Part shown: piece by piece, positions 1-24,600 of the stretch | Position numbering within the stretch: position 1 is the first letter of the stretch | Layout of the letters: every line of letters starts with the position of its first letter | Assembly: GCF_000687475.1 (NCBI RefSeq) | Contig: NC_057318.1 | Location: 1 to 64,000, forward strand | Direction: 5' to 3' | DNA from: Ustilaginoidea virens | Lineage: Eukaryota > Ascomycota > Sordariomycetes > Hypocreales > Clavicipitaceae | Length of the DNA: 64,000 nt | Notes under the pieces: model-generated | Seen by the model: the letters and a program-made list of their open reading frames with translations, nothing else | Told to the model about the DNA's origin: nothing | Database searches by the model: none | Made by a program: the position numbers and the translations under genes

Positions 1-36
1 CCTAACCCTACCTAACCCTAACCCTAACCCTACCCT
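1..36. repeat. Terminal telomeric repeat tract (CCCTAA)n
   Basis: The first 36 bases are CCCTAA units with a few short variants (CCTA, CCCTA). The C-rich strand reads 5' to 3' into the window, so this is the left end of a chromosome and the G-rich 3' overhang would be on the minus strand. The tract is short, probably because the assembly stops inside the telomere. It joins the Penelope-like element directly. Confidence 0.95.
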
Positions 37-394
37 AACCCGAACACTAACCCTTAACCTAGGATTGCGTGCTCGGGTATTCTTCGGATATCCGTGACCA
101 CAGTTTGGTATAACTGTGGTGGCAGGCGCGTCGCGGCCCTGCTCACGTAAGCCAAGTGCCGCTTTACGGCGGCTGTGGCATTTGCTACGTACCTAAGGTA
201 GGCCGGCAGTAGCCGGGTTGGAGGCCTCCCTCCTGCCTATTTATTGCCGGTCTTCCCCTCACTATACTCTGCCCTGATGAGCCACAACACAGGCGAAACT
301 GAAAGAACTCTTCCTCAGGTCTTCAGTCGGCAACGTGTTTTTTGCTCATTTTTCTGCAAGTCAAAGCTGCCCTTTCCGCTATTCCTAACCCTAC
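37..394 (+). repeat. Upstream terminal direct repeat (pLTR copy 1)
   Basis: This 358-bp segment is repeated at 3756-4113, and I see no difference between the copies. It begins and ends with telomere-like sequence (degenerate around 45-60, CCTAACCCTAC at 384-394). It is rich in hairpins: 97-105 pairs perfectly with 112-120 (9 bp, 6-nt loop), and 158-161 pairs with 167-170. It carries the hammerhead ribozyme at 260-337 and leads directly into the RT gene, so it probably also holds the promoter. Penelope-like elements typically have such pseudo-LTRs, formed by partial tandem copies. Confidence 0.92.
260..337 (+). ncRNA. Hammerhead ribozyme, type I (copy 1)
   Basis: The conserved core is present in order. 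Stem I 5' strand TGCC at 270-273; CTGATGA at 274-280; stem II GCC 281-283 with GGC 292-294 closing an 8-nt loop; GAAA at 295-298; stem III CTGAA 299-303 with TTCAG 322-326; cleavage triplet GTC at 326-328; stem I 3' strand GGCA 329-332. An outer extension CAC 260-262 with GTG 335-337 can close stem I beyond an internal loop. Predicted self-cleavage is after 328. Hammerheads in terminal repeats are known from Penelope-like elements. The fold is by hand, but all invariant bases are present. Confidence 0.88.
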
Positions 395-407
395 TTTTAC
401 TTTGACA

Positions 408-3314
408 ATGGCACCTTCCTCAGTTCGGAGTTTGAACGTTGTTGATGCGTCCTCGTCGCTAGGACCCTCCCTTTCCAACGTGTCGGCCATCGGAGAGTTA
501 ATCAACATCGTTCCCCATTCTTGGCGCTCGTCCATCGGCAACTATCTCACGACAGTTTATCGGGTTGCCACTAAGCTATGCAATGTGCAGAACACCATAG
601 CACAATATGACAAGCACCATGCTGAGGGTTCCTTTCCAGCGTCCATCAAGAATGCTGTGAAGGATCCAAAAATCCAGTTCTCGAAAGAATTCCTTGGGTC
701 TGAAATTGGAAGCCTGGCTAACAACCATCTCCAGTCGGTCATCCACTCTGCGCGAAAGAACCTCCTCGAAGAAGCGCAAAAAAGAAAGAAAGAGGAACTC
801 GCCACCCTTCAGGGTTTGACTCATTTTCATGAGATAAACTGGAAGAAACTCGTTCTCGAGGTCGCTGAAAGGGTTGGAACAACGTTTAATGCGAATCCAA
901 TTGTGGATCAGTCGGGCACACAACTTAGCTGGAAAGGAACTGTGCCCGATGACATTAAACAGGATTGCAAGTTTCTTTGGACCAAAGGATCAACATTGCA
1001 CTTCAAAGCAGTGTCCCTTGCCAGAGCAATTGCAGATCGGTCCCTTGTTGAGAAGATCAAAATTCTGAATCTCAAAAAGGATACCGACACAGCCATGCGC
1101 GATGCAGACGTCGAGTCCTCCACCAGGGACGTTGTACGCGATGAGATGCAGACACAATTACGTCTCCTCAAAAAAGAGCTTCTCCAATCAATGGGTACGT
1201 CTTCAGACAAATGTCGGACAAGCCCAAATACTGATATCGTCATAAGGAAAAGCAAAAAAGCCCGCCTCTCAGAACAACAACAAAAAGAAAGGCGGCACGA
1301 ACCCCTCTCGAGTCAAGAAAGGGCCTGCCAAGAGCAAAGGCAAGAAGAATGCGAAAAATCGTTGACGGTTGCCGCATTTCTTCAAGAGTGTTCGAAGGAT
1401 TTTCGTCCGTGGGACCCGGACACATATCCATCTGTATATAGTCGCTTGACAGATCAGAGCAGAATGACGATTAACTTTGCGTTCGCACGCACTTGGGAGC
1501 TTGATTCATTACGAACAGCTTCCCCAGGCATTTTTAAACATACTTCAGTGACACTCCCAGAAGACATTGAATACATGCTTGCAGTTAATCATAAGTTCAT
1601 TTTTCATCAAGCACCATTACAAAATGACGTAGAGAAGGCTAAAGAAAGCCTCCGCCGCCGAATCCGAAATGCATATTTCTTTCGCGGAAAAGATAGCACG
1701 GAATATATCCCCAAATTCCACGTGCCCAATCCTGCATGGAACCCACCGCGTGCTTCACAAGCAATTGAACAAGGAATGGAGGCGGCAATGAAAGTGATTG
1801 ACACTCAAGTTGCGCAAGCACTCTCGGGCATTGCTCAAAATTCCACTGCCCAACATTTTGGCTCATGGGCAAAAGTTCAAGAGATACTTGCCAAAAACAA
1901 TTGGCTCGTAAAACTCACAGATAAAAATCTGGGACTTGCGGTATTTCCTGCGCATTGGTACGACACACAATGTCTCACAATGTTGGCCGATACTGTTACG
2001 TACAAGCCAGTCTTTGTGGATCCGACACAAGCTATCTATGACACATTGATTGATCAAGTGGCCAGTTGGCGGCTACCTCCGGCTATGGAGAGATACATTC
2101 TGAGAAAGACAAAAACGATCAAGCCACAATTCCATGCGATTCCAAAAGTACACAAGGATCCTTGGACACTACGGCCGATTGTCCCGTCACATTCGTGGGT
2201 CACTACGACCACCTCAGAGGTTATTGATTATTTGTGTCAGCCACTTCTCAAGCAATTCCCTTGGATTGTGAACTCGTCAAAAGAGGTGATCAATCAGATT
2301 GAGAAAGTGCGCACCCTTGGAACAGAACCAATTTGGATATTGACCGGTGATGTGACCGCGTTCTACACAAACATCCCTCCCAAACCTTGCTCCAAAATGC
2401 TGGGCAAAATATGGGAAGTGTTCTGCAAGGAGTCGTCTATTTCGTCGCGCGCCATCAAACAAATGGTCCGCTTTGTAATGGACAACAATTTTCTAGAGTA
2501 CAGAGGGCAAACTTTCCATCAGATGAACGGTTTGGCAATTGGCACGGCTTGCGCCCCAGTTGTGGCCAACCTTTATGCTGCATGGTACGAAAGGAAAGCC
2601 CGGGTATGCCATCAAAATGGAGTTCTAATGTACGTCCGTTACATTGATGACATTCTTTGTCTTTTTCAAGGCACTGCACTCGATGCTAAGGCGCTCTGTG
2701 AGAACCTGAAGATCGGGCCACTCCGCATTAGCTGGTCGCATTCGTTGGAACGAAATGAGTTTCTTGACATTGAAATGTTAAGGATGCCCAACATTAGCCC
2801 GCGTGTGCTCCACACCAGGCTCTTTCGCAAACCAATGAATCGACATCTCTACATTCCCTGGTCGTCGGCTCACCCTTCACATGTGAAGAAAGGCTTTGTC
2901 AAAGCCGAGCTCATACGATTTGCCATTATTTGCTCCACTTACGAGTACTTTGCAGATGCTCGAAAAGAATTTTATGGCAATCTGCGCAGGAGGGGATATC
3001 CTGCACAGACACTGGAAGAATGGTTTAAGCAAGTGACTTATGACAATCGGCAAGCGCTTCTCGTCTTCCGCAAAAAAGATGAAAGCAAAGTGCCTTTAAT
3101 GTTGTCAGGCCATTACAATCCAGTGTGGGACTATGTAGATGTCAAGAAGGTGATCACGGAAGCAAGAAGGTTCTGGGTCAAGGAAGAGCTGCCGAACGCC
3201 CTGCAAGAACCGCTCATCCGGAGCCTTGGTCGTACTAAGAGTCTCTTTGACTTAATGTCGACATGGAATAAGACAGTGTTGCTCTCAATTTCGGACATTG
3301 CGGAAGAAGGTTAG
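408..3314 (+). CDS. Penelope-like reverse transcriptase (no endonuclease domain)
   Basis: A 968-aa uninterrupted protein. I start at the ATG at 408 because the 22 codons before it have no ATG. The N-terminal ~480 residues are an element-specific extension, lysine- and glutamine-rich around residues 270-330 with a basic patch (RKSKKAR). RT motifs follow in order: DKNLGLAV from residue 505; PQFHAIPKVHKDP at 573; TGDVTAFYTNIP with catalytic D648; GLAIGTACAP at 708; and YIDD with catalytic D747 and D748. Then come a FLDIEML motif and a thumb-like region. The C-terminus ends shortly after, with no GIY-YIG or CCHH endonuclease motif. This layout and the telomeric setting match Athena/Coprina-type enzymes, related to telomerase, which copy their RNA onto exposed telomere ends. 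No missing catalytic residue and no internal stop, so probably functional. Confidence 0.93.
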   Translation: MAPSSVRSLNVVDASSSLGPSLSNVSAIGELINIVPHSWRSSIGNYLTTVYRVATKLCNVQNTIAQYDKHHAEGSFPASIKNAVKDPKIQFSKEFLGSEIGSLANNHLQSVIHSARKNLLEEAQKRKKEELATLQGLTHFHEINWKKLVLEVAERVGTTFNANPIVDQSGTQLSWKGTVPDDIKQDCKFLWTKGSTLHFKAVSLARAIADRSLVEKIKILNLKKDTDTAMRDADVESSTRDVVRDEMQTQLRLLKKELLQSMGTSSDKCRTSPNTDIVIRKSKKARLSEQQQKERRHEPLSSQERACQEQRQEECEKSLTVAAFLQECSKDFRPWDPDTYPSVYSRLTDQSRMTINFAFARTWELDSLRTASPGIFKHTSVTLPEDIEYMLAVNHKFIFHQAPLQNDVEKAKESLRRRIRNAYFFRGKDSTEYIPKFHVPNPAWNPPRASQAIEQGMEAAMKVIDTQVAQALSGIAQNSTAQHFGSWAKVQEILAKNNWLVKLTDKNLGLAVFPAHWYDTQCLTMLADTVTYKPVFVDPTQAIYDTLIDQVASWRLPPAMERYILRKTKTIKPQFHAIPKVHKDPWTLRPIVPSHSWVTTTTSEVIDYLCQPLLKQFPWIVNSSKEVINQIEKVRTLGTEPIWILTGDVTAFYTNIPPKPCSKMLGKIWEVFCKESSISSRAIKQMVRFVMDNNFLEYRGQTFHQMNGLAIGTACAPVVANLYAAWYERKARVCHQNGVLMYVRYIDDILCLFQGTALDAKALCENLKIGPLRISWSHSLERNEFLDIEMLRMPNISPRVLHTRLFRKPMNRHLYIPWSSAHPSHVKKGFVKAELIRFAIICSTYEYFADARKEFYGNLRRRGYPAQTLEEWFKQVTYDNRQALLVFRKKDESKVPLMLSGHYNPVWDYVDVKKVITEARRFWVKEELPNALQEPLIRSLGRTKSLFDLMSTWNKTVLLSISDIAEEG

Positions 3315-3755
3315 TAAAGCCGAACGGAAAGGGTGTGTCGGCAAGGTGCCTTTGCTGCAAAGCAAGAGGGCGAGGTTGGCCGATTCGCCGAAACACAAGG
3401 CCACGTCACACCTCGGCGACCTGGGAGACGCCGGTCAAGGTCCGTTCCCTGGTTTTGAACACCGCTTCCAGTCGTGGCTGCATGGGATTTGCGGCATTTT
3501 TCCTCGTACACTTGAGACAGCAAACAGAGTCCGTTTGGACTGGTGCCTTTGGGAAGGTACTCGCCGCAGGTGTGCACGCAAGTGTCGCCTGCGTGGAAGC
3601 TGTGTCCCCACGTTGCATAAGTTCTCAGACAGTGACTTTGAAAATGCGCATTGATTGTCGCAGACCGACTCTAGGTAATGCCCGTCGCAATTGAGTTTTC
3701 GACATTCCACTTGACATAAATCCTTGGGAGGTAAGGGAGTTGTGGTGTCGGTTCA
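3315..3755 (+). other. 3' region of the Penelope-like element
   Basis: This 441-bp stretch lies between the RT stop codon and the second terminal repeat. Short open frames exist on both strands (up to about 119 codons), but they overlap, look like nothing known and have no start context, so I read it as 3' untranslated sequence. Its last bases (3741-3759) join the terminal repeat where copy 1 instead has telomeric repeats. Confidence 0.7.
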
Positions 3756-4113
3756 AACCCGAACACTAACCCTTAACCTAGGATTGCGTGCTCGGGTATT
3801 CTTCGGATATCCGTGACCACAGTTTGGTATAACTGTGGTGGCAGGCGCGTCGCGGCCCTGCTCACGTAAGCCAAGTGCCGCTTTACGGCGGCTGTGGCAT
3901 TTGCTACGTACCTAAGGTAGGCCGGCAGTAGCCGGGTTGGAGGCCTCCCTCCTGCCTATTTATTGCCGGTCTTCCCCTCACTATACTCTGCCCTGATGAG
4001 CCACAACACAGGCGAAACTGAAAGAACTCTTCCTCAGGTCTTCAGTCGGCAACGTGTTTTTTGCTCATTTTTCTGCAAGTCAAAGCTGCCCTTTCCGCTA
4101 TTCCTAACCCTAC
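3756..4113 (+). repeat. Downstream terminal direct repeat (pLTR copy 2)
   Basis: Second copy of the 358-bp repeat at 37-394; every block I compared is identical. It ends in CCTAACCCTAC, which merges into the inner telomeric tract. The RNA 3' end therefore contains sequence that could base-pair with the G-rich telomere overhang. Confidence 0.92.
3979..4056 (+). ncRNA. Hammerhead ribozyme, type I (copy 2)
   Basis: Exact second copy of the ribozyme at 260-337, shifted by 3719 bp: CTGATGA at 3993-3999, GAAA at 4014-4017, predicted cleavage after 4047. Cleavage at both sites would release a 3719-nt unit-length RNA (329-4047) containing the whole RT gene with a 79-nt leader. Confidence 0.88.
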
Positions 4114-4199
4114 CCTAACCCTAACCCTAACCCTAACCCTAACCCTAACCCTAACCCTAACCCTACCCTAACCCTAACCCTAACCCTACTAACCCTAAC
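4114..4199. repeat. Inner telomeric repeat tract
   Basis: About 86 bp of CCCTAA repeats with occasional CCCTA and CTACTAA variants, in the same orientation as the terminal tract. It continues the telomere-like end of the Penelope element and abuts a broken copia element at 4200. It is most simply an older chromosome end that was later capped by the Penelope element. Confidence 0.93.
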
Positions 4200-6250
4200 G
4201 ATAGTTAGACTAATACTATAGAGCCTATCGACCTTAATAATGCTACGAAGATATAGCTACACAACTGTATCGCGTTCCTTATAGATACCTATAAGGAAAA
4301 TACCTACCTGGATGATGATCTCTAGGAATAATTCCGTGAGGATTATAGCGAGTGGAATAAAGCCCTATTCTGCCGTATCAACGCTTAGGTTTTACAGCAA
4401 TTCCGCTTAATATTACGGGAACGCAGCGTATATATTGGAGTATCGGGTTCCCTAACAATACTAACCCTATTTAAATGCCTTTAATAACAATAGAATCCAT
4501 AATGGCCTCAAGAGGAAGTAACCCGATAACTTACTCATAGCATATTCCTATCCCGGCTTAACCCTACCAGGGAAACCTTACTACCCATCGGTAATACCGA
4601 GTAAGAGATATAAAGGCTTCAAAATACGCCCTTACATATACGCATAAGGCCCTTATTATTATTATTACAAGCCCCCACAATAGTTATACGAATACCCTTA
4701 CTAAGGCTCGCATTACGGCTCTTATAAGCCCCGTCAACGCTAAGGAACTTTATCATACTAATGGTACGATCATAGTCATAACAACCTATCGTCCCCCCCT
4801 TTATATCGAAAAAGCCCCTTGACCCTGCCCTTACCGATAAAGAAAGGGGCCGGTCCTAATAACCAAAAGGGAAGACGCCTATTTACAATAGGCCGCTATT
4901 CGAAACAGGGGAAAACTCCCATTATTAATAATATGCAACGGCCGATAATTACAGCCTATAAGACCGACCCGATTAATTATATCAACCTAGGGATTATACC
5001 CCTAGCTAAGGCGGCTATCTTAATGCCCCTCGAGGTTATAATATGCCTAATAGAGGCCGAGTTATAGGCCCCGATGATATGCTTCCTTCAATAGAGGACC
5101 CCAATAATAATACCCTCTAAGCTAATGCCGCCCCTAATACTAGATATTACGAATCGCGGTATTACGGCCTATAGGCCCTAATGCCTCATCCTTATCCAAT
5201 AATACCAAAAATAGGCATGGCACCCGGCCTTTCCCGTTAATATCGCCCTACTCAGGCCGATAAACGGACGGTTTTAAAAGGAGTATCGATAAACCCAGAC
5301 CGACCCAGATTATAGGATAACCTAATAAGAGATCCCGCCAGCCTGCCATAAGGCAACCGATAAGCTATTCCAGAATACCCTCCGGAAGATTATACCCGAA
5401 AAGCCTATGCAGAGGCCGGGTTTAATAATATATCGAAGAAGATATCTGACCTCTTACGCAGCTATTGCATAGAAGATAGATATAGCGGCAAAATGGATGA
5501 CTTTATTATACCAAAAGTTATCTCTTTTAAGAGCAAATGCCGCCTACTAGGATTACCCGATAATATATTAGCTAGAGCCTTCTAAATCATACTCATCGGC
5601 GATACTAAGACCTATTACTTTGATAACATTAAATATATTCGCAATACCCTTACTTTTAACGATATAGTCCGCAAAATCAAGAGCTATTTCGAAAATAAGA
5701 GCATAGAGTAATTCTATTTGCACTATTGGAATAGAATAATGCTCTAATCAACTATTGCGAAACATCCCGATAAGTTAAAGTTAGAATGCCTTAACATCCT
5801 ACTAGAGGAACTTTAACGCCTATATCATAGTCTTTTTCCCCCCTTTATAGCTAATATAGAGCTTTATCGGCAAATACTTAACGCTATAAGGGATACCCCT
5901 AAGTATAGCTAGGCCTTATATCGTTATGCCCCTACATTCGAAGGCCTTACTACTAACCTACGGCGATCCCTTTCTATTTACAAGTCGGTCTATATAAATC
6001 AACAATATCATTTCCTTCAATAGCAATAACATCACGATACTGACGATATTGATGACAATATAGCGCTGTTTATAGACCGTAGATATAGTCAATCTAACGA
6101 TCGGCACTAACGCCCTCAACGCCGATTCAGCCTATAGCAGCAGTATTAACGGCAACAATAAAATCGCGCCTTTCCAGCCAGGCCCCGTCAAAGACGTTGC
6201 TTTATTTATAATAAATTAGGATATTAGTCATCCAACCATACTGATAAAGA
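4200..6250 (+). pseudogene. Copia-1a gag relic with zinc knuckle
   Basis: Degenerate gag coding region with stops in all frames. Its sequence can be followed in Copia-1c (12600-13350), Copia-1d (22700-24600, reverse strand) and Copia-1b. Near 6186-6240 a nucleic-acid-binding zinc knuckle of type CFIxNKLG..SSNH is still readable, with one cysteine lost. An open stretch at 4819-5067 is only a surviving piece of this frame. Confidence 0.7.
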
Positions 6251-6639
6251 GCAATAAGAATCAAAGGCATAATAGCTAAAGAACCGTTCTAATTATACCG
6301 CCCCTAATGATAAGAAATTCCGCATTTTCCTATAGGAATATAAGGGGCCCGCGTAAGGCCTTAAAGATGCCGATTTTGATAATATCGTTAAAGATATTAA
6401 AGTTATAATAGCAGGGGATGCATAATAGGATGCAGAGAATGCTATTACACCACAAATTATAGCTACTTAGTACTTCCTAGCCCCTATGCAAATAGAACTA
6501 TCACCTTCTTTATCTATCGAAATATTGCAAGCCCTATAGGATGAATTATACTGATATGCCTTCTTATAGATTAATCCCTTCCGAATGCCCTTACTACTAT
6601 TAGACTATAATTCTGCCTTTTTAGAAGAAGAATGCTATA

Positions 6640-9600
6640 GTGACTATATATTCCGCGGAATCCTACCGGATACCGGCGCCTCCAGCCTATCTATAGCAGG
6701 CATAGGTTAAGCAAGAGCCCTAATAAGATTAATAAAATCTTTAACGATTGAGTCAATAGATACACAATATACCATTAATTTCGGAGTAGGTTCTGCTATA
6801 TCTTTTAGTATATTAAATATCCTAACGATATTCAGTAATATCCCCTTCTACGTTCTTAATAGTAGCACCCCCTTTCTCTATTCTATTATAGATATAGATA
6901 GGATGGGCGTAAAGCTAAATAATATTGATAACTTACTTATTAAAGGGGATATTAAGGTTCTAATTATTAGGAAATAGAGACATCTATAGTGGACTCTTAA
7001 TGCCATAGATACTGCTGCCTTCTACCTCTTATTATAGGAAATCCGTCAGCTTCATCGTCGATTTGGGCACCCCTCTATCAATAGGCTTACTAAATTGCTT
7101 TAGCAGGCTGGTTATAATGATATTGATCGCAACATTATCGAAAGCATCACCTATATATGTTATTAATGCTAAATGAACGCAAAAGCACCCAGCCGATTTA
7201 AATTCACACTAAAGGATAACTGCTAATTTAACTATAAGATAATTATAGATATCCTTTACATTAATAATCGGCCGGTATTATATATCGTGGATGCTACAAT
7301 AAGCTTTTAGGCAGCTAGGTTCCTTGATCTATAAAGATAGAAGGCCTAAGATATTTAGAATGCCCTTAAGGAATACTAGATTAATACCTATTTTAGCCCG
7401 CCGGATTAGATAGTTTATAATGCCGGACCCAACTTCGCTTCTGCCGAATTCCGTTATAATGCCCGGCTTCTATCTATTAATATAGATAAAATTCCCATAG
7501 AAGCCTATAATAGTATCGGCAAAGTCGAGAGATATTACGCCCCATTACGCAGAGCCTATACCATTATTAATAAAGAAATAGGCGACCTATTAATAAGGGA
7601 ATAGAAACTACAGCTAGCTATTAAAGCCGTTAACGATTCTGCTAAGCCTAACAGCCTAATACCTACGTTACTAATCTTTAGAGCGTATCCCCGACTTATA
7701 GATAATTCACCTCCTAGCTTATTAGTATCATAATGCGCCTTAATATTACGAAAGGCCACTAATAAAGCTAGGAAATGCCTCGCTAAGCGATAAGTTCACG
7801 ATGCCCTCACCTAATAGAATGGCCCGGACATATAGCCTATCTACCGACTACCCCTATAATCCGACGTACGGGTATAAAGAGAAAAGGGTAGATAGCATAA
7901 GCCGTACCGGCTAATCAGCCTCAAAGGTAAGACCTATATTATGCAAATGCCATATGGCCCTATTAAGTTCCGGTTAATAGTCGTTAAGCCTTATAACTAC
8001 GACCTTAATAGCGATCCCGCTGCCAATAATGCCGAAGATATCATTTATGCCAAAGGACCGGCCCGCCCCGGCCGGATGGAAGTCAGGATACCGGCTGCAG
8101 CCGCACCTCTAGCCGCAATAACACCTGCAGCCGTAATATATCCGCCACTAGCCACTGGCTCTAATCAAGCCAGGCCGCTATCACTATTACCAGCAAGGGT
8201 AGTATCCGACGTCATAATCAATAAGGACTAAGAAGAAGCTCTCGTCAACGCTATAGCTTCTAATACCATTATTAACATCTCTTTCCTAACCGCGAAAGAG
8301 CAAGCCAACCTGCAGCTTACTAGTCAATTACATCAAGAAGGGAAGATTATAACCTTAGGAGACCCCTTCGAATAGTCTAACCGTATAAAGGTAAAAGCGT
8401 TATAGGCCCGCGATATATTCCGATTTATTACCTTTAATATCGGTAAACATAAAGCCTAACGTCTCTTTAACTTACATATAATACGAGAGATTAAGGGCAA
8501 AGGCATGGATATACTATATGAGAAGTCACAACTCGTCATACAAGGTCATAGTAATAATAAAAAGCAATTAATATTAACTTAGTCCCCTGCAATCCAACAG
8601 GCTAGTCAACGGTTACTTATATCATTAGCCCCATCACTACAACACTCTTACGGCTTATTCCTCTAGATACGTAATATCATATAGGCTTACGTGCAATCAT
8701 CTACCACCCTCAACAGATCGATTATCGCCAAATTACCCAAGCAAATAGCTCACCAATACCCTAATAATACGATCATAGAAGTAGTAAAGCCACTATACAG
8801 AATAGCTAAGGCAGGCACCTATTAGTGGGCGACATACTTCCGGCACCATCGCGAGAAGTTAGGCATAACTATATCGACCTATAACCCCTATTTACTAATA
8901 TCTACTAACGTTCCTAACTATACTAGCGATACCATATGCTTCAGTATCGTAGGTATGCAGACTAACGATACCCTCGGCCTAAGTGACAATGCCTTCTTCT
9001 AATAGGAAGAATTAGAGCTTACTAAGGCAGGCTTTAACGCCAAGCCCAAGACGAAGCTATCACTAACCGTGCCCCTAATATTCAACAGATGCATACTAAC
9101 GGCTACTTCCGACGGCATAATAACATTATGCCAGAAAGGTCAAAACAAGAAGATCGCGACCATCGACAAGAATACACCCACAGCACAGCATAATTATATC
9201 GAATAACGCACTCGCGGCGCTTACGTGGCTACGGTCTACTAGCCTAAGGCATCTTTTAACCTATCTATCGCGGCACAATATTAGCAACCTGACCCTAACG
9301 ATATCGTAAAATTAAATAAGCGCCTTTAATAGCAGCGTAATAACCAAGATCGTGGCTTACGGTATATCAATCTAGCCCTTACTACAGCCAAGCTCTTTAT
9401 ATTTATTGACGGATCCTTTGCCAATAACAAAGATTTAAGCTCCCAGATTAGATATATTATTATGCTAAGGAATAAAGAAGAGGATAACCCTACAGATAAT
9501 ACCTTCCTACTAACCAGTAATATCGTTACTTATAGCTCTACAAAAAGTAAGCATATAATACGCAGCGCACTCGCTTCGGAGCTATATAGTATAGTACAAA

Positions 9601-18529: not shown

Positions 18530-21500
18530 CATCACCAATACTTTCTAAATGCAGTCAGACATTGATCGACCTCTTTACCCACCCTTTAATACGTATAACA
18601 GCCTTATTGTGGTCGACGAAGGTCTTAAGGGCTTTATTAGGCGTTCCCTTAGTTATTGCATCGGCAAGATTATTATTCCTATTGATCCAACGGATCTCAT
18701 ATATCTCCCGGCGCTTGTATAACTGTCGTAGGGCCATAATATCTATTATAAGCCTCTTTTCCTTAGTAGTGCCTAGCTTAACTAGGCATTCGTACAGCGA
18801 AAACGAATCCATACACACAACTGTGGGGATCTTCGGCAATCCCAGCCTACTGGTAATCATATTAAGGGTCGTGCCTATCGTATATGCGATATCGACCCCT
18901 TGCACCATGCTATACAGCTCCGAAGCGAGTGCGCTACGCGTTACCCGCTTGCTCTTTATAGAGCTGTAAGTAATGATATTACCGGTCAGCTGGAAGGCGT
19001 TATTCGCAGTATCTGCCTTATTCCCTAGTATAATCACGTAACCAATCTGGGAGCTTAAATCTTTATTATTGGCAAAGGATCCGTCAACAAATACAAAGAT
19101 CTTAGCTGTGGTAAGGGCCAAATTGATGTACTATAAGCCACGATCCTGGTTATCGCGCTGCTATTGAAGGCGCTTATTCAACCTCGCGATATCCTTAGGG
19201 TCAGGTTGCTAGTGTTGTACTGCGATAGATAGGTCAAAAGACGCCTCAGGCTAGCAGACCATAGCTATATAAGCACCGCGAGCGCGTTGCTCGATATAAT
19301 TACGCTAGGCCGTAGGCGCATTCTTGTCGATAGTCGCGATCTTCTTACTTTAACCTTTCTGGCGTAATATCATACCGTCAGCATTAGCTATCAGCATACA
19401 CCCGTTGAATATTAGGGGCACGGTTAGTAATAGCTTCGTCTTAGGCTTAGCGTTAAAGCCTGCCTTAATAAGCTCCAATTCCTCCCATTAGAAGAAGGCA
19501 TCGTCATTAAGTCTAAGGGTATCATCAGTCTGCATACCCACAATACCAAAGCATATGGTAGTATCGCGGTCAGGAACGTCAGTATAGTCAGTATTGCTAG
19601 TGCAGTCAGTATCGTTATTACCGGCGGATATCAGCAAACAAGGGTTGTAGGTTGATATAGTCATACCTAATTTCTCGCGATAGTGCTAGAAGTATATCGC
19701 CCACTAGTAAGTGCCTACCTCAGCTATTCCGTATAATAGCTTGACCACTTCTATAATAGTATTATTAGGATATTAGTGGGCTATCTGCTTGGGTAATTTA
19801 GCGATAATCGACCGATTGAGGGTAGTTAATAATTGCATATAGGCCTGCGTAATATCCCGTATCTAAAGGAATAGGCCGTGAGAGCGTTATAATAATAGGG
19901 CTAATGATATAAGTAGCCGTTGACTAGCCTATTAGATTGTAGGGGACTGAGTCAATATCAATTGCTTTTTATTATCACTATAACCTTATATAACGAGTCG
20001 TGATTTCTTATACGGCGTATCTATGCCTTTACCTTTGATTTCCCGTACCATACGTGAGTTGAATAGGCGTTAGGTTCTATATTAACTGATATCAAAGGTA
20101 ACGAATCTAAACATATTATAGGCCTGTAATACTTTAATCTCTATACGGTCCGACTGCTTAAAAGGGTCTCTAGGGGTCGTGATCTTACCTTCCCGGCATA
20201 ATTAGCTAGCAAGCTATAGGTCGGCTTGCTTTTTCGCGGTAAGGAAGGAGATATCGATAATAGTGTCAGAAGCTATAGCGTTAACGAGAGCTTCTTTTTG
20301 GTCCTTATTAATTATAATATCGGATATTACATATGCTGGTGATGGTGATATTGGCCGTAATGCCGGTATCCTAGCTGGGTCAGGGGTTGGCGACGATATC
20401 GCGACTGTAAGTATTATTATAGCTAGAGGTGCGGCTGTAGCCGGTATCCTGACCTCTAGCCTGCCAGGGCAGGCCGGTCCTTCGGTATAGACGATATCTT
20501 TAGGATCGTCCGTATCAGGGTCGTAGTTATATAGTTTAATAACTATTGACCGGAACTTGACCGGGCTATATAGCATCTATATAATATAGGTCTCACCATC
20601 GAGGCTGATTAGCCGGTACGGCCTATACTATCCACCCTTTTCTCTCCATACCTATACATCTGACTATAGGGGTAGTCGGTAGATAGGCTGGGTATTTAGG
20701 CCATTCTATTAGGCGAAAGCATTACGAACCTATCGCTTGGCGAGGCATTTCCTAGCTTTATTAGTAGCCTTTCGTAACATTAAGGCGTATTATAATACTG
20801 ATAGGCTAGGCGGTGAGTCATCTATAAGTTAAGGATACGCTCCAAAGACTAATAATATAGGCACTAGACCGTTAGGTCTAGCGGAATCGTTAACAGCTTT
20901 TATAGCGAATTATAATTTCTATTCCTTTATCATTAGGTCGCCTACTTTATTATCAATAATAGTATAGGCTCGGCGTAATAGGGCATAATATTTTTCGACT
21001 TTGCTAATGCTATTGTGGGCTTCTATAGGAATTTCATCCATATTAATAGATAGAAGCCGGGCATTATAGCGGAATTTAGTAGAGGCGAAATTAAGTCCAG
21101 TATCGTAAACTATCTAATCCGGCGGGCTAAAGTAAGTATCGATCTAGTATTCCTTAAGGGTATTCTAGACGTCTTAGGCCTTCTATCTTTATAGATCGAG
21201 GAACCTAGCTGCCTAGAAGCTTATTGCAGTATCTATAATATATAATACCGGCCGATTATTAATGTAAAGGATATCGACGATAATTTCGTAGTTAAATTAG
21301 CTAGTATCGTCATCCTTAAGGGTGAATTTAAACCGGTTAGGTGCCTTTGCGTTTATCTAGCATTAATAGCACATATAGGTAATACTCTCGATGATATTAC
21401 GGTTAATATCATTATAACTAGCCTGTTAAAGCAATTTAGAGAGCCTATTGATGGAGGGGTGCCCGAATCAACAATATAGCTGACGGATTTCCTATAATGA

Positions 21501-22050
21501 TAGATGGAAGGCTGCAATATCTATAGCATTGAGAGTCCACTATAGATATCCCTATTTCCTGATAATTAGAACCTTAATATCCCCTTTGATAAGCAAGTTA
21601 TCAATATTATCCAGCTTTACGCCTATCCTATCTATATCTGTAATAGAATAGAAAAAGGGGGTGTTACTATTAAGAACGTAGAAGGGGATATTGCCGAATA
21701 TTATTGGAATATTCAATATACTAGAAGATATAGCAGAACCTACTCTAAAATTAACGGTATGCTACTTATCCGTTGACTTAATCGTTAAAGATTTTATCAA
21801 TCTCATTAGGGCTCTTGCTTAACCTATGCCTGCTATAGATAGGCCGGAGGCGCCGGTATCCAGTAGGATTCTGCGGAAGGTATGGTCACTATACTATTCT
21901 TCTTCTAGGAAAGCAGAATTATAGTCCGGTAAAGGCATTCGGAAAGGGTCAATTTATAGGAAGGCATATCGGCACGATTCATTTTATAAGGCTTGCAATA
22001 TCTCGATAAATAAAGAAGGTAGCGGTTCTATTTGCATAGGGGCTAAGAAA
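18530..22050 (-). pseudogene. Copia-1d pol relic
   Basis: Domains in reverse order along the window. RNase H is the best-preserved part, open at 18555-19121 (188 codons, FVDGSFANNKDLSSQIGYVI and NNLADAITKGTPNKAL). RT lies at about 19150-20200. The integrase-RT linker (PVKFRSIVIKLYNYD) is in the open block 20214-20576. The integrase core is at about 20600-21350 and the pre-integrase motif near 21440-21480. The protease DTGAS motif is near 21850-21875. Numerous RIP-type stops make it inactive. Confidence 0.8.
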
Positions 22051-24600
22051 TACTAAGTGGCTATAATTTGCAGTGCGACAGCATCCTCTATATCCCAATA
22101 TATAACCCCTGCCATTATGACTTTAATATCTTCAATAATATCATCAAAATCGGCATCTTTAAGGGCTTAATCGGCGGTCCCTTTATATTCCTATAGGAAA
22201 ATGCGGAATTTCTTATCATTAGGAGCGGTCCGGTTAGAGCGGTTCTTTAGCCATTATGCCTTTAATTCTTATTGCTTTTTATCAGTATAGTTAGATAACT
22301 AATATCCTAATTTATTACAAACGAAGTATCTTCTTTAATAGGGCCTAGCTAGAAAGGCGCGATTCTATTATTACTATTAAGGGGGTCCGTATCGTTAGGG
22401 GCATTAATACCAGTTATAGGATTGACTATATCTATGATCTATAAATAACGCCATATTCTCATCAATATCTTTAATATCTTGATATTGCTAAGGCTATTAT
22501 TGAAGGAAGTAATACTGTTAAGTCATATAGGTAGTCTTGTAGATAGAAAGGGATCGCCGTAGGTTAGCAGCAAGGCCTTCGAATGTAGAAGCATAACAAT
22601 ATATAGCCTGGCTACACTTAGGGGTATCCCTAACAGCGTTAAGTACTTATCGATAAAGCTCTATATCCGCTATAAAGGGGGGAAAGAGACTATAATATAG
22701 GCGTTGAAGTTCCTCTAGTAGGATATTGAGGCATTTAAGCTTTAACTTATTAGGATGTTTCGCGATAGTTAATTGAAGCATTATTCTATTCTAATAGTAC
22801 AAATAGAATTGCTCTATGCTCTCATTCTCGAAATAGCTCTTAACTTTGCGCACTATATCGTCGAAAGTAAGGGTATTACGAATGCGTTCGATATTATCAA
22901 AGTAATATATCTCAGCATCGCCGATTAGCATAATTTAAAAGGCTTTTGTGAGTGTATAATCGGGCAATCCTAGAAGGCGGCACTTACTCTTAAAGGATAC
23001 TACCTTTAGTATAAGGAAGTCATCTATTTTGCCGCTATATCTATCCTCTATATAATAGCTGTGTAAGAGGTTAGATATCTTCTTCGAAATATCGTTAAAC
23101 CCGGCCTCTGTATAGGCTCTTCGGGTATAATCTTCTTAGTGGTGTTATTATTCTAAAGGGTGTTCTAGAACGGCTTATCGGTAGCCTTACGGTAGGCTGG
23201 CGGGATCTCTAGCTAGGTTATCCCATAACCCGGGTCGGTCTGGGTTTACCGGTCCTCCCATTAAGACGGTCCGTTTATCGGCCTAAGTAGGCCGATAGTG
23301 CCGGGAGGGGTCTAGTGCCGTGCCTATCCTTAGCATTATAGGCATTTAAGCCGGTAGTTAAGGCATTTATGCCTATAGGTTATGGCTGCGATATTATAAT
23401 TCGTAATATCTGGTATTAGGAGCAGCTGTTTTATTAATATTAGGGGCTTGCCCGGTGCCGCTAGTAGCGGTATATCGGGGAATATTGATATTGGTGGCTT
23501 AGAGGGTATCGCTAGCAACTTCGAGGGTGTTACCGTCGGCGTTTTCTATTAATTAAAGCATATCATCGGGGCCTATAACCTGACCTCTAGTCCTTATAGG
23601 CATATTATAATTCCAAGGGGCATTGGGATAGCCGCCTCGGCTAGCTCGGCTAGGGGTATAACCCCTAAGGTGTAGTATTTAGTCGGTCGGGCTATAGTCA
23701 TTATCTATTAAATATTGCTATTATCGGGAGCTTTCCCCTATCTTAAATAGCGGCCTATAAATAGGCGCTTTCCCTTTCTATTATAGCGGCCGGCCCCTTT
23801 CTTCTTCAGTAGGAATAGGGGCCTTCTTTGACGTAGATAGAGGGATGAGGGGTTATTATGCCGTTAGTGTTGTAAAGTCCCTAGGGGTCGAAGGGGCTTA
23901 TAAAGGTCTTCGCGAGGGTAATCGCAAGGGTATCCATAAGGGCATCTATAAGGGTATTCGAATAATTATAGCAGGGAGTGAATTCCTCGAGCTTATAATA
24001 GAGGGGGCATTCTGGTTCATTTGCATCTCCCGTTCGGTATAAGCAGTAGGGACTAATTATTCCCTATCTGGATTTAACCGGGATATAAAGGTTTTGCGTG
24101 TAAATTGGAGATCTATTTCCTCTTGAGGCCACTCAGGCATATACTCTTGCTGGAGATAGTGGGTAAGGGTCTTAACTGCTGATAATCCTATGCTTCCAAT
24201 GTATACCCTACGTTCCCATAGGGTTATTCGGAATTCCTATAGAAGCCATTTATTAATACGGTTGAATAGCTCCTCGGTCTATTCCTTACAATCATTACGG
24301 AATTATTCCTATAGATTATCATCCATCTTATCGCCTGTTGTGTAGTTATTAATAAGGTAGGCGATACGATTGTGTAACTGTTCGTCTATAGCATTAGCAG
24401 GGTCAATCTGCCCTTTTAAATTAGCCTAGTCCTCTGTGATAGTATCGGCGTAAGGCCTAAGCCTTTCGGGTAGTAATGCCTCTATCGTAATATTAATAGG
24501 GGTAGGCATGTGTATTAGAGAGAGAGGGAGTATTTAGCGTAGGTATTAGAAGGAAGTAATTAATAGAAGAAAGAAAGAAGTAATTAATAAGAAGAAGGAA
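22050..24600 (-). pseudogene. Copia-1d gag relic
   Basis: Reverse-strand gag, degenerate. The zinc-knuckle region is near 22260-22330. The gag body aligns to Copia-1a 4215-6200 and to the pieces of Copia-1b (26099-26670, 41875-43450). The leader near 24520-24660 is an AG-rich repeat of GAAG/GGAAGAAG type. Confidence 0.65.

Follow-up and report, generated by a model that had tools for sequence, protein, structure and literature searches.

Coprina comprises endonuclease-deficient Penelope-like elements of basidiomycetes, and the first-pass annotation of the locus studied here took rotifers and basidiomycetes to be the established hosts of such elements at telomeres. This holds for Athena in bdelloid rotifers, but ascomycete parallels, one putative and one unrecognised, are also in print according to the published descriptions (PMC4522978, PMC8381367). 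For endonuclease-deficient Penelope-like elements, end-priming followed by telomeric addition has been described (PMC3846280), and in a Penelope-like element of Anolis reverse transcription has been shown to initiate internally on the RNA, at a site non-homologous to the primer (PMC11167929).

As far as these accounts go, the closest printed parallels to the element described below are a putative family of Zymoseptoria tritici and an approximately 4 kb repeat of Pyricularia oryzae, the latter not recognised as such. Subtelomeric family 4 of Z. tritici (Mycosphaerella graminicola) consists of end-restricted reverse transcriptase (RT) elements of 3.4–3.5 kb, called a putative PLE; their 3′ end carries telomeric hexamers and points away from the telomere (PMC4522978). 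The family numbers 34 copies of full length, which occupy 26 of 41 ends, and 49 truncated ones; the same paper describes the transposable elements of this species as riddled with transitions (PMC4522978). In the foxtail P. oryzae strains Arcadia2 and US71, the 4 kb RT repeat is bordered by direct repeats and lies near chromosome ends (PMC8381367). Its RT gene is closest to telomerase RTs in the nucleotide-binding region, its borders are telomere tracts, and it forms tandem arrays with truncated copies; its likeness to an LTR element was thought by the authors to be coincidental (PMC8381367).

Architecture of the element

In the window, the whole 64 kb stretch of DNA that was analysed, a retroelement of about 4 kb is complete at positions 37–4113, with two direct repeats flanking one intact open reading frame (ORF). 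All features described here lie on the plus strand. The first-pass annotation had reported an intact element at 37–4199. The element is present and its ORF is open, but the element proper ends at 4113, the inner telomere tract occupies about 4103–4198, and the pseudo-LTRs, the hammerhead-like motifs and an encoded telomere motif had been overlooked. The direct repeats, or pseudo-LTRs (pLTRs), span 37–394 and 3756–4113; they are 358 bp each and identical. Within the 5′ pLTR, the encoded telomere motif CCTAACCCTAC lies at 384–394 and is followed by the non-telomeric TTTTACTTTGACA and then by the ATG. This partial tandem layout, with pseudo-LTRs around a single ORF, is as in Penelope-like elements.

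The ORF (408–3314) encodes 968 amino acids counted from the ATG, and its sole Pfam match is RVT_1 (aa 618–755, positions 2259–2672, E 8.6e-8). No other Pfam domain is listed for it up to E 10, a range in which HMMER filters drop most weak matches. The lack of a GIY-YIG endonuclease claimed earlier is borne out on this scale, and the same Pfam results contain neither the integrase, RNase H and protease of LTR retrotransposons, nor Telomerase_RBD, nor any endonuclease match of the restriction-enzyme-like kind that marks MoTeR-type LINEs. The RVT_1 region carries the RT motifs DVTAFYTNIP (2349), NGLAIGTACAPVVANLY (2526) and YVRYIDDIL (2631). DKNLG, YTNIP and YIDD are all present in the ORF, and we take these motifs to be linked to Penelope-like elements. 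The last located motif, DLMSTWNK, occupies aa 948–955 of 968 and is followed by 13 residues to the end of the ORF. Two ORFs tested in the 3′ untranslated region (3315–3755) have no Pfam match.

With the full ORF and the RT core as queries, no relatives were confirmed among viral and prokaryote contigs, and a plasmid search gave one weak match to a group II intron RT (E 7e-3). A PDB sequence search with the whole ORF returned nothing at E≤1, while the RT part gave four matches (E 0.35–0.93), namely two group II intron-like RTs, one RNA-directed DNA polymerase and one capsid protein. An AlphaFold model of the protein, made without an alignment, is unusable (pLDDT 36). On the strength of its structure and of the motifs named above, the element is provisionally best classed as a Penelope-like element that attaches to telomeres and is endonuclease-deficient.

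Copies and telomere tracts at chromosome ends

Searches of the genome found three copies, on 3 of its 14 chromosome ends, every one with its 3′ side inward. A DNA search scored three places, all of them contig starts, and searches with the 3′-end pattern and with the pLTR each gave six matches, all six inside these copies. This survey of the other chromosome ends had been called for in the first-pass annotation, and it agrees with the placement proposed there: all three copies found sit at ends, and the distribution is not a mainly internal one. The C1 and C3 cores are identical across 4,067 bp, and the pLTR cores are identical within each of these two copies as well. Between the C2 and C3 cores there are 33 small indels and no substitutions under three scoring schemes. 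In a MAFFT alignment of the same pair, mismatches adjoin gaps in five columns (C3 positions 942, 943, 1071, 3071 and 3072), one of them C/T, and the other scoring schemes treat all five as indels. Because the copies are identical or differ in the core by indels alone, RIP in them was rejected. The sequence around the element has a RIP-like composition, in keeping with the RIP-bearing host suggested earlier. The mitochondrial ORF that was examined has PDB matches just to 6yw5, a Neurospora structure, and to similar entries. Subtelomeres of this genome share sequence widely.

Telomere repeats were counted in the window as matches to CCCTAACCCTAA with at most one mismatch. All 15 matches fall within 10–44 or 4113–4189, against 1.09 expected by chance, which confirms the CCCTAA repeats previously noted on both sides of the element. 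A target duplication would be indistinguishable here, since both flanks are one and the same tandem repeat. The distal tract (1–37) presents the C-rich strand and forms the present chromosome end in the assembly; telomere repeats lie above each of the three copies, at the element 5′ end. The inner tract (4103–4198) has the encoded motif at 4103–4113 as its distal edge and meets a RIP-type repeat at 4199/4200, a point that a related copy at 6.12 Mb of C2 runs past. Inner tracts under the copies measure 69, 96 and 124 bp, within the 41–156 bp range of 11 element-free ends, and their variant patterns differ from one end to the next. At C2L and C3L the tract stands in place of sequence that continues in related repeat copies. 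Because it cuts off a repeat that those copies continue, we read the inner tract at two of the three ends as a former, healed chromosome end. The host genome has a separate telomerase-type gene (PF12009) elsewhere, as the earlier picture of an element acting beside telomerase presupposed.

Hammerhead-like motifs in the pseudo-LTRs

Each pLTR contains a hammerhead-ribozyme-like motif (264–338, predicted cleavage 328/329; 3983–4057, predicted cleavage 4047/4048), with a stem I of 4 bp plus a distal 4 bp, a stem II of 3 bp and a stem III of 6 bp. The motif was spotted by eye before our scan was designed; the scan found two occurrences in 64 kb, both within the pLTRs, and found the motif in 2 of 3,000 shuffles of 1–4113. 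Rfam HH9 scores motif 1 at 13.3 bits, below its gathering score of 52, and no hammerhead was reported by Rfam over 1–4400 at E≤1. The hammerhead fold lies 4.6 kcal/mol above the MFE, and the region has a z score of −0.10 relative to shuffles, 77 of 200 of which fold at least as well. We regard the motif as a possible self-cutting RNA of hammerhead-like form.

Junctions and a proposed mode of attachment

The RNA-sense 3′ end of the element is directed at the inner telomere tract. The telomere-priming geometry put forward in the first-pass annotation is supported as to orientation but calls for amendment, for the 3′ junction is identical and out of register in all three copies. In each, the encoded CCTAACCCTA motif meets the chromosome repeats out of register. 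Given this break, the junctions do not reflect perfect annealing to the encoded motif, and in-register annealing of the overhang to it, taken alone, was rejected. A start of reverse transcription at a fixed position, or recombination from a single founder, would account for the break being common to all. The possibility that the CCCTA units are read errors only was dropped for the 3′ junction because the three copies are alike. At the 5′ border, C2 has CCCTAACAC and C1 and C3 have CCCGAACAC, one base apart. The junctions are compatible with priming on a chromosome 3′ end.

We favor, with a probability of about 0.68, a Penelope-like retroelement whose RNA and RT behave in a telomerase-like manner at the G-rich overhang, with a fixed start and subsequent capping by telomerase. 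The RNA and RT would work together as a telomerase-like particle where a G-rich 3′ overhang is exposed. Reverse transcription would always begin at one place in the RNA, the encoded CCUAACCCUAC motif, which lies 13 nt ahead of the next unit's ATG. Copying would proceed toward the RNA 5′ end and on over part of a second unit (in a tandem, circular or second RNA), which would generate the pLTR-ORF-pLTR layout. New repeats would then be added to the 3′ end of the cDNA by telomerase. Multimeric RNA may be trimmed to 3,719-nt units by the hammerhead-like motif, and copies may spread further between ends via telomere recombination. A more specific proposal, that this is a currently active ascomycete telomerase-like RNP with an internal telomere-motif start and hammerhead-cut unit-length (possibly circular) RNA that alternates with telomerase, is tentative and on present signs rather doubtful.

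The three ends need not each record a separate attachment. One founder may have attached by reverse transcription, the two other ends then receiving a copy by telomere recombination, either break-induced copying or telomere-attrition-induced replication begun in the inner tract. The C1 and C3 copies, whose cores do not differ over 4,067 bp and whose 3′ and 5′ borders agree, point this way, as do the broken register common to all three junctions and the wide sequence sharing among subtelomeres here; recombination has also been proposed for the P. oryzae repeat (PMC8381367). The C2 5′ border, one base off through independent healing or read error, and the individual variant patterns of the inner tracts weigh on the other side without being decisive, and we consider this history to have somewhat less than an even chance.

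The remaining readings are all unlikely. The P. oryzae repeat was interpreted as a non-mobile product of telomere failure with a captured cellular RT gene and a coincidental LTR likeness (PMC8381367), a reading that the few copies here would suit; it is improbable given that the direct repeats are exact and lie one unit apart, that each holds a hammerhead-like motif and that the RT ORF is open; this layout is the one described for Penelope-like elements (PMC11167929, PMC6155905). An element contig misjoined to telomere tracts is suggested by the C2 end, which seems unpolished with its 33 small indels, but order and orientation are alike at three ends and the junctions are exact. Chimeric assembly is unlikely because one arrangement recurs with different inner flanks, and we give it very little weight. 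MoTeRs bear a restriction-enzyme-like endonuclease, and a telomere-targeted LINE of this type would cut the repeat array for itself. MoTeRs, too, are found within telomere repeats, which also occur at their 3′ ends, and their 5′ ends carry telomere-like CCCGAA units (PMC8381367); the absence of any endonuclease match up to E 10 and the direct repeats at both ends of the present element make such an origin scarcely credible.

Relation to known systems

Like Athena and Coprina, the element has one RT ORF without GIY-YIG, is restricted to chromosome ends and has telomeric repeats at its ends. It differs from them in its ascomycete-like host, its mere three copies free of transitions, the hammerhead-like motif in the pLTRs and the out-of-register junction. 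Compared by description only, Z. tritici family 4 is likewise an end-restricted RT element with telomeric hexamers at the 3′ end, and the present element is set apart by its three copies, in which transitions were not seen. The P. oryzae repeat, again by description only, resembles it in size (about 4 kb), direct repeats, single RT gene and telomere-tract borders, and differs in its tandem arrays and truncated copies. The Anolis Poseidon element PAc, as described, shares the pLTR-ORF-pLTR layout; it has a hammerhead motif, to which the hammerhead-like one here may correspond, and an RNA-internal RT start not far from the pLTR-ORF boundary, such as is proposed here. Unlike the present element, it has a GIY-YIG endonuclease and AT-rich insertion sites, and its RT starts lie within the ORF, by 111–118 bp, whereas the start proposed here precedes the ORF (PMC11167929). 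The likeness to telomerase would lie in an RT acting at a G-rich overhang and in the CCUAACCCUA stretch of the RNA, whereas the element would copy its own whole RNA, has no Telomerase_RBD listed and resides in a host whose telomerase-type gene is separate.

Elements of this kind are known already; the copy described here is intact and recent, with a possible self-cutting RNA. An intact, RIP-free copy in a host genome that shows RIP-like decay and has a telomerase gene would make a compact test system, in which the priming of these RTs on chromosome ends, so far an inference, is testable. It also offers an alternative reading for the Pyricularia repeat whose retroelement likeness was called coincidental in print (PMC8381367). 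If the proposal of an active ascomycete telomerase-like RNP is true, the 4 kb repeat that is amplified in Pyricularia lacking telomerase would be an element of this same kind.

Structure and identity of the element

The window, which forms the left end of the 6.43 Mb contig C3 in an assembly of 37.16 Mb and eight contigs, carries at positions 37-4113 what we judge, with a probability of about 0.85, to be a telomere-attaching Penelope-like element (PLE). A single open reading frame (ORF; 408-3314, 968 amino acids) lies between two identical direct repeats of 358 bp, here called pseudo-LTRs or pLTRs (37-394 and 3756-4113), and a 3′ UTR of 441 bp separates the ORF from the 3′ pLTR. The sole Pfam match of the ORF is RVT_1 (amino acids 618-755, E 8.6e-8). 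No further Pfam match up to E 10 was returned for the ORF or for two 3′-UTR ORFs tested, under HMMER filters that discard most weak matches, and an NCBIfam search yielded four bacterial reverse transcriptase (RT) families, whose best score of 32.8 bits falls below the cut-off of 200. The motifs DKNLG (amino acid 505), DVTAFYTNIP (648), NGLAIGTACAPVVANLY (707) and YVRYIDDIL (742) are ones that we take to be typical of Penelope-like RTs.

CCCTAA repeats are present at all 14 ends of C1 to C7. The host is probably a fungus of the Pezizomycotina. We regard the remaining contig, C8 (98 kb), as mitochondrial; ORFs that we read as homing-endonuclease-like lie within its first 10 kb, and the ORF at 7749-9071 matches one distinct PDB sequence only, a mitochondrial ribosomal protein (6yw5, presumably from Neurospora, and three further entries). 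Each of the 14 chromosome ends fetched shares blocks of more than 150 bp and 68-97% identity with at least one other end, which may reflect either shared repeats or frequent exchange.

Copies in the genome

Searching the whole genome, including the other chromosome ends as the first-pass annotation proposed, placed copies on 3 of 14 ends, each with its 3′ side inward, which bears out its observation that the RNA 3′ end faces the inner telomere tract (the telomere repeats beneath the element). All three places scored in a DNA search are these copies (C1:45-4130, C2:12-4084 and C3:28-4112). A protein search gave eight matches among nine candidates, one at C1, one at C3 and six pieces at C2, with no place beyond them. 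All six matches to a 3′-end pattern (up to 3 mismatches; control, 0) and all six pLTR matches fall within the same copies, repeat counts from these searches being lower bounds. No internal copy was found by DNA, protein, 3′-end pattern or pLTR, and the mainly internal distribution that would have spoken against telomere priming was not seen in these searches.

The C1 and C3 cores are identical along 4,067 bp. Relative to them, the C2 core has no substitutions, 24 one-base deletions, eight one-base insertions and one two-base insertion, on which three scoring schemes agree; MAFFT places five mismatch columns adjoining gaps, one of them C/T, versus none under the other schemes. The 5′ border of the C2 copy differs further at its extreme (CCCTAACAC versus CCCGAACAC). 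These indels look like unpolished read error. Positions 1-4084 of the C2 left end hold 33 small indels without substitutions; this end appears unpolished, so that labelling the copy a pseudogene may be an error.

Repeat-induced point-mutation-type decay (RIP) should leave many transitions in the copies. TpA/ApT is 0.60 in the element; of 16 successive 4-kb segments, the 13 that cover 4001-56000 have values of 1.22-1.59. The DNA-methylase family has matches at two places in the genome. Because the expected transitions are absent and TpA/ApT is low, the copies are young, provided that RIP, whose activity we infer, operates in this host.

Junctions and priming

Each pLTR closes with a telomere-like stretch, CCTAACCCTAC. 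Its copy in the 5′ pLTR immediately precedes TTTTACTTTGACA and then ATG, and the motif therefore belongs to the element and not to the host only. The 3′ border of all three copies reads CCTAACCCTA-CCCTAACCC and lacks one base that the register would require. Simple annealing of a TTAGG overhang to the encoded motif should have preserved the register, yet the 3′ borders break it. Overhang priming by the element's RT, as first proposed, stands as a plausible mechanism, while simple in-register annealing is not matched by the junctions. The observed join would result if the RT always started at the C following the motif and the overhang ended in GGG, and copying beyond one unit (from a tandem, circular or second RNA) would produce the pLTR-ORF-pLTR arrangement; we infer both steps. 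A single founder copied by recombination would also yield the out-of-register join at the second and third copies. We put the odds of the priming mechanism at roughly even.

The 5′ border (37-59, AACCCGAACACTAACCCTTAACC) is itself telomere-like and is likely to be a seed for telomerase, and the 5′ ends of MoTeRs are likewise described as bearing CCCGAA units (PMC8381367). A host telomerase-type gene is marked by two PF12009 pieces above cut-off at C2:3.10 Mb, one interrupted by a TAG taken for an intron, with an adjoining RT-like frame containing LIDDFL.

Former chromosome ends beneath the element

Inner tracts, encoded motif included, measure 124 bp at C1, 69 bp at C2 and 96 bp at C3. Terminal tracts span 41-156 bp (mean 83) at the 11 ends without the element, the count stopping early at the right ends of C1 and C5, where repeats run further; they are 55, 37 and 37 bp at the three element-bearing ends, the C2 count taking in a few element bases. 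At the C2 left end the inner tract ends inside a subtelomeric repeat that the C2 right and C6 left ends continue without telomere repeats, and at the C3 left end it likewise interrupts a repeat continued by a related copy at C2:6.12 Mb. For the C1 left end, comparison with the 14 fetched ends (up to 10 kb each) gave no match that extends to the junction. At C2 and C3 the arrangement is the one expected if telomerase healed a broken end, the element was later added on top and a new cap followed.

The repeat at C3 is a RIP-type dispersed repeat (4200-9169 and 19324-23426), cut by the telomere tract at 4200, whereas the copy at C2:6118000-6126600 runs on; the junction is a healed chromosome break within this repeat. 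That copy of the repeat holds three interstitial TTAGGG units (C2:6122313-6122330), absent from the window copy and some 650 kb away from the end of the chromosome, possibly a telomerase-marked break repair.

A hammerhead-like motif

Fungal PLE ribozymes are said, in a 2014 abstract, to fold as monomers. We scanned both strands of the 64 kb with a pattern composed after the motif had been noticed: CTGANGA, stem II (≥3 bp), GAAA, stem III (≥4 bp), U-H and stem I (≥4 bp). It matched two sites, one per pLTR, with 4, 3 and 6 bp in stems I, II and III and predicted cleavage at 328/329 and 4047/4048. Shuffles of 1-4113 (plus strand) matched in 2 of 3,000. Against a hammerhead stand the Rfam results, the fold energy and the z-score of the region: no Rfam hammerhead matched at E≤1 over 1-4400; 121 bases gave HH9 at 13.3 bits (E 0.77, gathering score 52) beside three similarly weak snoRNA matches; the predicted hammerhead fold has -13.4 versus -18.0 kcal/mol for the minimum; and z against shuffles is -0.10. 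A review describes hammerhead motifs in all available PLE sequences, usually minimal and without helix III, whereas helix III of this candidate has 6 bp (PMC6155905).

Relation to known elements

Endonuclease-deficient PLEs are described as priming on exposed ends and afterwards gaining telomeric repeats (PMC3846280), and a putative family of this sort is reported at 26 of 41 ends in Zymoseptoria tritici (PMC4522978). In Macrophomina phaseolina isolate 11-12, 109 repeats annotated LINE/Penelope are commoner in small contigs (PMC6829926). Reverse transcription of Anolis PAc begins internally, at sites without homology to the primer that coincide with the ends of its genomic copies; these starts lie 111-118 bp within the ORF, whereas copies here end 13 nt ahead of it, so the likeness is one of principle and not of exact place (PMC11167929).

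A 4 kb repeat of foxtail strains of Pyricularia oryzae has direct repeats, is bordered by telomere sequence and encodes an RT most similar to telomerase; the authors deem the LTR likeness coincidental and tie amplification to telomere failure (PMC8381367). Its layout, as described there, matches that of the element, and from that description it may be an unrecognised PLE of the same kind. Among the matches listed in a literature search, no title or abstract mentions a telomeric PLE with a hammerhead in an ascomycete. The present element belongs to a kind already known, and its interest lies in its being intact and young.
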